DNA of 33,179 nt from Eubacterium sp. (GTDB lineage: Bacteria > Bacillota > Clostridia > Lachnospirales > Lachnospiraceae). The stretch's first letter is position 1. The number at the start of each line of letters is the position of its first letter. Under the pieces are notes generated by a model. It did no database searches. It was not told the origin of the DNA and saw nothing but the letters and a program-made list of their open reading frames with translations. Positions 13,895 through 17,882 of this stretch are shown in pieces. The translations under genes were made by a program, and so were the position numbers. The DNA lies in assembly GCA_024684535.1 (NCBI GenBank), contig JAIKWQ010000127.1:1-33179 (forward strand), written 5' to 3'.

Positions 13895-13906
13895 AGAGAG
13901 GTGCGT

Positions 13907-14542
13907 ATGAAGCAGGTAGTAAGCTTTCTTATCAATGGAAAAGAATTTGGCCTTGATATGACCAAAACGAAGACCATCGACAATCCGAAAGAATTGATCA
14001 AAAGAGATGATCTGCCTGACTTTGTGCAGGGAATCATGAACATACATGGTGATATGATTCCGATAGTTGACGTAGCCCAGAGAATGCAACTTCCTGAGTA
14101 CGATGAAGTTGATGAGATAGAAAGAAGGGTTTTGGTTTTTCTCAACAGAGCCGGGAATTACGGTATTCCTGTGGATGCCGTTACGGAGATTTTCAAGGTT
14201 GAGGATGCTGATGTGCAGAGGATTCCCGGATTTTTCTCGGGATCAGAGACGGATTATACCGAATGTATAGTGAAAAAAGGCAACAGCCTTGTGCTTGTTC
14301 TCGATCCGGACAAGTTTTTGCTTCCGAATCAGTGGGAGGAAATGCTTAAGCTTATGGAAACCATAGAGAAAGAGCGTATAGAAGAAGAAAAAAGAAAGCG
14401 CGAGGAACTCAGGCGCAAAAAAGAAGAGGAAAAAAGAAAAAGAGAAGAAGAGATGAGGGCGATGGCAGAAGCTCAGGAGAATGCCGGTCAGGCGGAAAAG
14501 CCTGAAATCGTCGAGGAAGGAGAAATATCAGAAGATGACTAA
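13907..14542 (+). CDS. cheW: CheW-like chemotaxis adaptor with a long charged C-terminal tail
   Basis: CheW fold motifs (VVSFLINGKEFGLDMTKTKTIDNP, IMNIHGDMIPIVDVAQRM, YGIPVDAVTEIFKV); tail EKERIEEEKRKREELRRKKEEEKRKREEEM. Confidence 0.8.
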   Translation: MKQVVSFLINGKEFGLDMTKTKTIDNPKELIKRDDLPDFVQGIMNIHGDMIPIVDVAQRMQLPEYDEVDEIERRVLVFLNRAGNYGIPVDAVTEIFKVEDADVQRIPGFFSGSETDYTECIVKKGNSLVLVLDPDKFLLPNQWEEMLKLMETIEKERIEEEKRKREELRRKKEEEKRKREEEMRAMAEAQENAGQAEKPEIVEEGEISEDD

Positions 14543-17012: not shown

Positions 17013-17882
17013 TTACTCGAATTTAATGATAAGGTGACTTTCTTTTCCTTCAAGGAAGATAGGAAGAGAATAGTACTCGCCGTCTGTTTCAATAGGTTTG
17101 TCGAAAGAAAGCTGCGGTGGCATCATATCCAGAGATATGTTCTGGAAGCTGAGCTCTGCTGCATACAGACCGTTTACGCAGTTTGTAAACTCTGCGATAG
17201 AATCGAGAGCATCCTCATCAACTGCAGGGAACTCCTCTTTCGCATAGCCGTCGGCGAGTGAAAGAATGTCGTCGTTTTCTCCTGTGAATCCGAGGAACAG
17301 TCCATAGTCACCGATGATCTTCTGATATGCGGCGTACTTGGGAGTTTCTCCTGAAACAAATTTTCCCGGTGCGATGCGTATATAAGAACTGATAAACCTG
17401 ATGATGTTACGCAAGGTAAGTCCGATCAGATCAAGATATCTTTTGTCTTTGATATCAACAAAAGCAGGCAACATTCCCTCGATGTTGCCGTCTCTTATGG
17501 CTTTCATAATGGAATTGGAATAATCATTTTCCTTCTGGAAAGCGGTGAGGTTGTAATCAATCTCATCGTTTGTCAGACATCCGTTCTCGTCAAGAGCCTG
17601 CACGAAAAGAAGGTATGGGTTGCTCTGCAATCCAAGCAGATAGTTGACGTCTGATTCGGTCAGATAACCTTTTTTCACAGCCAAATCGCCAAAGCGCTCA
17701 TCTGACTGCACCTGGAGATAGTTAAGTTCCATAACCTGACTGCTTGTCAATAACCCTTCGCTCTCTGCAATAAGACCTAATTTTACGCGGTTTGCTTTGA
17801 TATAGGTCATGCAGGCGGAGAATTGCTCAGCGGTTATTTTCTGGTTTTCAACAAGATAGTTTCCAAAAAATTGACTAAACAT
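17013..17882 (-). CDS. CheX-like CheY-P phosphatase with an N-terminal MshEN-like repeat domain
   Basis: C-terminal DSIAEFTN matches the D/S-x3-E-x2-N CheC/CheX motif. N-terminal KLGLIAESEGLLTSSQVMELNYLQ-VQSDE-RFGDLAVKKGYLTESDVNYLLGLQ matches the MshEN 24-5-24 pattern. Confidence 0.7.
   Translation of the reverse strand: MFSQFFGNYLVENQKITAEQFSACMTYIKANRVKLGLIAESEGLLTSSQVMELNYLQVQSDERFGDLAVKKGYLTESDVNYLLGLQSNPYLLFVQALDENGCLTNDEIDYNLTAFQKENDYSNSIMKAIRDGNIEGMLPAFVDIKDKRYLDLIGLTLRNIIRFISSYIRIAPGKFVSGETPKYAAYQKIIGDYGLFLGFTGENDDILSLADGYAKEEFPAVDEDALDSIAEFTNCVNGLYAAELSFQNISLDMMPPQLSFDKPIETDGEYYSLPIFLEGKESHLIIKFE

Follow-up and report, generated by a model that had tools for sequence, protein, structure and literature searches.

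A candidate c-di-GMP-responsive CheX-type phosphatase paired with a dedicated CheY in Lachnospiraceae

Introduction

The closest described relatives of the protein discussed here are the MshEN domains and the CheX/CheC/FliY class of phosphatases. In MshE, mutation of any conserved hydrophobic residue carries a more than 10-fold cost, and L29 is one of the residues that sandwich the first guanine. The MshEN fold need not bind, as illustrated by PilF GSPII-A. In the non-binding XpsE the change L29R is one among several (Wang et al. 2016, PMC5013675). In the CheX/CheC/FliY class, an Asn orients the water, and an acidic residue pairs with the receiver lysine (PMC3035606). The known links between c-di-GMP and chemotaxis act at the motor or via CheY-like binders such as Cle. 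The Cle proteins themselves bind c-di-GMP by means of an Arg-rich tail, with no requirement for phosphorylation (Nesper et al. 2017, PMC5677366). The pairing of MshEN with CheX has been listed as a domain association, without a test in the main text (Wang et al. 2016, PMC5013675); a full-text literature search gave no further paper on it, and none came up when the literature was searched for c-di-GMP together with CheC and FliY in Clostridia. Lachnospiraceae are a gut and rumen family in which the output of c-di-GMP is little known. We describe here an MshEN-CheX gene from such an organism, with its genomic neighbourhood and its relatives.

Organisation of the locus

The window, by which we mean the whole stretch of 33,179 nucleotides that was analysed, contains an MshEN-CheX gene of a gut or rumen Lachnospiraceae bacterium (Table 1). 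An AlphaFold2 model of the protein, based on an alignment of 45 sequences, has a mean pLDDT of 93.5 and a pTM of 0.83, and shows paired helices and then an alpha/beta domain, with the repeats running on into the CheX domain as a single confident chain. The 45 aligned homologues and this confident fold rule out a spurious open reading frame. The CheY gene starts 37 bp past the stop of the phosphatase gene on the same strand, and its product keeps all of D8, D9, D53, T81 and K103. The module was found in 53 of 150 family genomes, about one-third of the Lachnospiraceae sampled, and in 22 loci a CheW gene lies near it, including a same-genus locus, L059. The CheW-domain protein of the window has a long, Lys/Glu-rich C-terminal tail. 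A gene resembling that of the hydrophobic protein is present at the equivalent place in the same-genus locus (L059:5480-6271).

Table 1 Features of the MshEN-CheX locus, with positions in the window
Feature	Position	Strand	Basis or remark
MshEN-CheX gene including stop	17013..17882	-	289 aa, ATG start at 17882
Repeat 1, residues 5-28, degenerate	17799..17870	-	MFSQFFGNYL start nearly invariant in family
Repeat 2, residues 34-57, putative first c-di-GMP half-motif KLG...G...Q	17712..17783	-	gapless alignment to MshE 9-32
Repeat 3, residues 63-86, putative second c-di-GMP half-motif RFG...G...L...Q	17625..17696	-	aligned to MshE 38-61
Repeat 4, residues 92-115, degenerate, runs into linker helices	17538..17609	-	AlphaFold2 and motif check
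CheX-type phosphatase domain, about residues 147-289	17016..17444	-	Foldseek best hits CheX/CheC structures, E 1e-8
Active-site segment DSIAEFTN, residues 227-234 (D227, E231, N234)	17181..17204	-	conservation in 52 copies
PP pair, residues 255-256, downstream of Asn	17115..17120	-	also in Thermotoga CheC
CheY-type response regulator, 120 aa	16613..16975	-	Pfam Response_reg 1.4e-28
Hydrophobic protein, 270 aa	15758-16570	+	adjoins CheY; no Pfam match
CheW-domain protein	13901..14542	+	Pfam CheW 1.7e-19; about 2 kb beyond CheY

Repeats and the putative c-di-GMP pocket

The initial annotation, made from the letters of the sequence, had described the N-terminal half as four MshEN-type repeats with a period of 29 residues over residues 5-116. 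The period is well founded: 29 is the top one among all offsets from 10 to 59, with a mean BLOSUM62 self-score of 0.36 as compared to -0.88 ± 0.23 in shuffled sequences. A chance repeat is ruled out by this test, since none of 10,000 shuffles reached the observed score at offset 29 and 0.1% of 2,000 reached it at any offset. The same offset ranks first over the 45-member family alignment. Repeat 2 (K34-Q57) and repeat 3 (R63-Q86) are of 24 residues each and joined by the 5-residue linker VQSDE, exactly as annotated, so that two half-motifs of the form RLGxx..G..xxxxLxxxLxxQ lie 5 residues apart. Around this central pair, repeats 1 and 4 are degenerate and have neither Arg/Lys at position 1 nor Gln at position 24. 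Ligand binding by all four repeats is rejected for these two, because the contact residues are kept only in repeats 2 and 3; repeats 1 and 4 look structural in role.

That the central pair belongs to MshEN is supported by profile and predicted fold alike. The NCBIfam model NF053729 (MshE-related c-di-GMP motif) gives the protein 39.2 bits, above its cut-off of 38, and matches 45 of 45 family members at E<0.01. A family profile aligns residues 28-87 without gaps to residues 3-62 of Vibrio MshE (E 1.3e-6). An unrelated predicted fold would have spoken against the annotation; Foldseek instead finds the four-helix bundle of the 53-residue MshEN unit, the model matching 5htl with a probability of 0.99 and an rmsd of 0.8 Å over 53 columns.

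The counterparts of the MshE residues can be read from this alignment. In repeat 2, K34, L35, G36, V50, N54 and Q57 correspond to R9, L10, G11, L25, L29 and Q32 of MshE, and in repeat 3, R63, F64, G65, V79, L83 and Q86 correspond to R38, L39, G40, L54, L58 and Q61. Conservation of these putative pocket residues in 52 copies is high: K34 is kept in 47, G36 and Q57 in 50 each, R63 in 44, F64 in 52, G65 in 49 and Q86 in 51. The hydrophobic guanine-pocket positions 2, 17 and 21 are F, V and L in repeat 3, and L, V and N in repeat 2. When compared to the relaxed published motif, repeat 3 fits at 11 of 11 positions and repeat 2 at 9 of 11, with misses at position 7 (E) and position 21 (N). The Glu at position 7 is common to the close relatives of the query, and position 21, the equivalent of MshE L29, is Asn in 31 and His in 7 of 52 copies across the family. 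The case for c-di-GMP is at its weakest in whether binding tolerates this Asn, perhaps together with the invariant F64.

These deviations raise the question whether binding has been lost, the repeats being a structural or protein-protein domain on a plain CheX phosphatase that serves its CheY. Such a loss would agree with the Asn and Glu of repeat 2, with the published non-binding relatives PilF GSPII-A and XpsE, and with five outlying copies (L021, L023, L047, L060, L105) that lack key pocket residues. However, K/R1, G3 and Q24 of both half-motifs occur in nearly all copies, even very distant ones, and two copies, L044 and L046, show no departure from the relaxed motif. Furthermore, GGDEF proteins are encoded in 53 of 53 carriers, and in three loci (L057, L061 and L079) the MshEN-CheX gene has a divergently oriented GGDEF-EAL gene as its neighbour; these three, together with one at 1.5 kb, are the only strong GGDEF matches in about 1.1 Mb of flanking sequence. 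On balance we regard a loss of binding as unlikely, and binding of c-di-GMP by repeats 2 and 3 as probable, in our judgement and not as a computed value. The genome of the window has 20 GGDEF matches, and MshEN occurs only in its two MshEN-CheX genes. In the outlying copy L060 (genome G094) the contact residues are replaced by S, P and R at key places, and the CheY is intact.

The putative phosphatase half

The C-terminal half has the CheX/CheC fold, as indicated by AlphaFold2, Foldseek and profile, with the Borrelia CheX-CheY complex 3hzh among the best Foldseek hits. A fragment of a pilus or secretion ATPase is ruled out, since this half is CheX. Comparison with the Pfam CheX profile gave a divided answer: the query scores 24.4 bits, under the gathering cut-off of 27, which is a profile threshold and not a structural feature, whereas 39 of 45 family members match the model at E<0.01 (best 4e-12). 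The annotated DSIAEFTN motif was found at residues 227-234, with the DxxxExxN pattern kept. Its Asn, N234, is invariant in the 52 aligned copies, all of which have an acidic residue at position 231 (32 Glu, 20 Asp). E231 and N234 are the acid and the Asn of the E-x2-N motif that would enter the receiver active site. The assignment to CheX is thus carried by the fold, the profile and an invariant active-site Asn. Two subfamilies can be distinguished by active site and gene order. In the first, D227 and E231 go with a CheY that is located downstream or fused; in the second (type B), A227 and D231 (A-x3-D-x2-N) go with a CheY located upstream. Locus L043 is an exception, with CheY upstream and yet E231. 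We judge, again without a computed value, that the protein is very probably a CheY~P phosphatase in activity.

The CheY partner and the genomic context

The link to an adjacent CheY, which the initial annotation had assumed for this locus, turned out to be much stronger than was visible there: adjacency is universal, fusions recur, and CheA co-occurs. In the species-genome collection, each of the 44 relatives has a CheY gene directly next to the MshEN-CheX gene and on the same strand (35 downstream, 9 upstream), and in a sample across the family CheY is adjacent or fused in 51 of 53 copies, 6 of them fused; there is overlap between the two sets of loci, in that L046 and L067 seem to be one contig. 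One of the fusions is a paralogue of 440 aa (34% identical) in the genome of the window itself, an MshEN-CheX-REC protein with a C-terminal receiver domain. In Desulfovibrio, the gene after CheY encodes a CheA-like kinase with Hpt and HATPase domains. The D, D, D, T/S, K signature is intact in the partner CheYs except in genome G062. There the receiver lacks the T/S and one of the acidic residues, and the CheX site has become N...D..N, while the MshEN motif is kept. This genome is the sole carrier without a detected CheA. The degenerate CheX site and receiver in the absence of CheA fit a CheX site that serves receiver phosphorylation, although this is a single case.

CheA was detected in 52 of 53 carriers as compared to 26 of 97 non-carriers (Fisher 2e-19), and FliM in 49 of 53 as compared to 29 of 97, both being counts that are not corrected for phylogeny. 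Three carriers have CheA and PilB-type ATPases and no detected FliM. The retention of CheA in these three suggests, with small numbers, that the module is tied more tightly to the kinase than to the flagellum, and a strictly flagellar module is unsupported.

Such genomes also bear on where the protein would act. It has to be considered whether the repeats bind c-di-GMP for localisation or dimerisation, recruiting a constitutively active CheX, with CheY, to the motor, a pilus base or an array. The sequence evidence is the same as for c-di-GMP-dependent phosphatase control, MshEN is common in pilus and secretion ATPases (Wang et al. 2016, PMC5013675), and the three carriers without detected FliM would be in agreement with it. 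However, no localisation partner was found, and the predicted protein is one confident chain from the repeats into CheX, which fits coupling without proving it. We consider recruitment improbable as compared to control of the phosphatase by c-di-GMP.

A further question is which output the paired CheY serves: the flagellar motor, pili or a phosphate sink. Any of these may be the output, given that a different CheY is encoded next to FliY in the same-genus flagellar operon and that other likely CheY-P phosphatases, namely FliY and a separate CheX/CheC-type protein, are present in the genome. In the same-genus flagellar operon (L052), the separate CheY lies between FliY and the export genes, and the paired CheY differs from it in sequence (VDDSRTSRRML as compared to CDDAAFMRVMI in the flagellar-operon CheY). 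Together with the persistence of the module in the three CheA-keeping genomes mentioned above, this makes it conceivable, though we give it rather less than an even chance, that the paired CheY serves as a phosphate sink or regulates some other output and is not the motor CheY. MshEN-CheX would then reset the sink under c-di-GMP and affect the flagellar CheY only indirectly, which is compatible with c-di-GMP control of the phosphatase. On the other hand, the paired CheY retains the usual CheY signature residues.

Some further features of the chemotaxis and flagellar genes were observed. The flagellar operon of the window genome contains a YcgR-PilZ gene (L066:5117-5875). The che operon of the genus (L052, L066) has the order CheA-CheW-CheD, with no CheC gene between. 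CheD often partners CheC in other Firmicutes. In the window assembly (G000), FliM and FliY each occur twice, on contigs C163 and C175, with identical FliM scores, which may be assembly redundancy.

Proposed mechanism

The computation supports the domains, the fold, the conserved site residues and the pairing with CheY. With binding, catalysis and coupling inferred from these, we favour, by a modest degree, the view that MshEN-CheX is a CheY~P phosphatase that responds to c-di-GMP and has a CheY of its own. An MshEN pocket formed by repeats 2 and 3 would hold one c-di-GMP. The CheX domain would reach into the active site of the adjacent CheY with N234, which orients the water, and with E231, which forms a salt bridge with the lysine of the receiver, and so dephosphorylate this CheY. 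Binding of c-di-GMP may alter the helical repeat bundle. Repeat 4 and the helices of the linker (residues 105-163) could relay this change to the CheX domain, which would then differ in activity or in how it reaches CheY. In this way, c-di-GMP would set the lifetime of CheA-phosphorylated CheY and hence motility output, by flagella in most carriers and perhaps by type IV pili in some. That c-di-GMP regulates the phosphatase activity is, as a judgement and not a computed value, somewhat more probable than the opposite. The sign of the effect is not readable from sequence; we lean slightly towards activation, as a guess.

It may be, with a chance that we put just short of even, that a c-di-GMP receptor, a CheX domain and a dedicated CheY form a general module, sometimes in one polypeptide, for control of CheY~P lifetime by c-di-GMP in Clostridia and Desulfovibrio, with the two subfamilies D...E..N and A...D..N differing in active site and gene order.

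Comparison with known systems

Membership of the protein in both parent families, MshEN and CheX, is supported by sequence and fold. The domain pairing is already known; what is new here is the dedicated CheY partner, the recurrent fusions, the two active-site subfamilies and the association with CheA. As in Vibrio cholerae MshE (5htl), there are two 24-residue half-motifs, a 5-residue spacer and a four-helix bundle, with R/K1, G3, G10 and Q24 kept. In contrast to MshE, two extra degenerate repeats flank the pair, the equivalents of L29 and L39 are Asn and Phe, and the output domain is CheX instead of an ATPase. With the CheX/CheC/FliY proteins (Thermotoga CheX 1squ/1xko, Borrelia CheX-CheY 3hzh) the protein shares the fold, the D/S-x3-E-x2-N motif and a CheY partner, but it has an N-terminal c-di-GMP-type receptor, CheY is fused to it in some species, and there is a second subfamily with A-x3-D-x2-N.

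Control of flagellar motility by c-di-GMP would be a feature shared with the YcgR-type PilZ flagellar brake, which acts at the motor and not on CheY phosphorylation. If the proposal is true, a phosphatase that reads c-di-GMP would put control at the step of signal termination, and the module would bring dephosphorylation in chemotaxis under the direct control of a second messenger. The gene may thus feed the swim-or-settle signal into the chemotaxis pathway. The likeness to Caulobacter Cle (Nesper et al. 2017, PMC5677366) would be that c-di-GMP provides an input to chemotaxis at its CheY/motor branch, whereas the proposed c-di-GMP receptor is here the phosphatase and in Cle the CheY-like protein itself.
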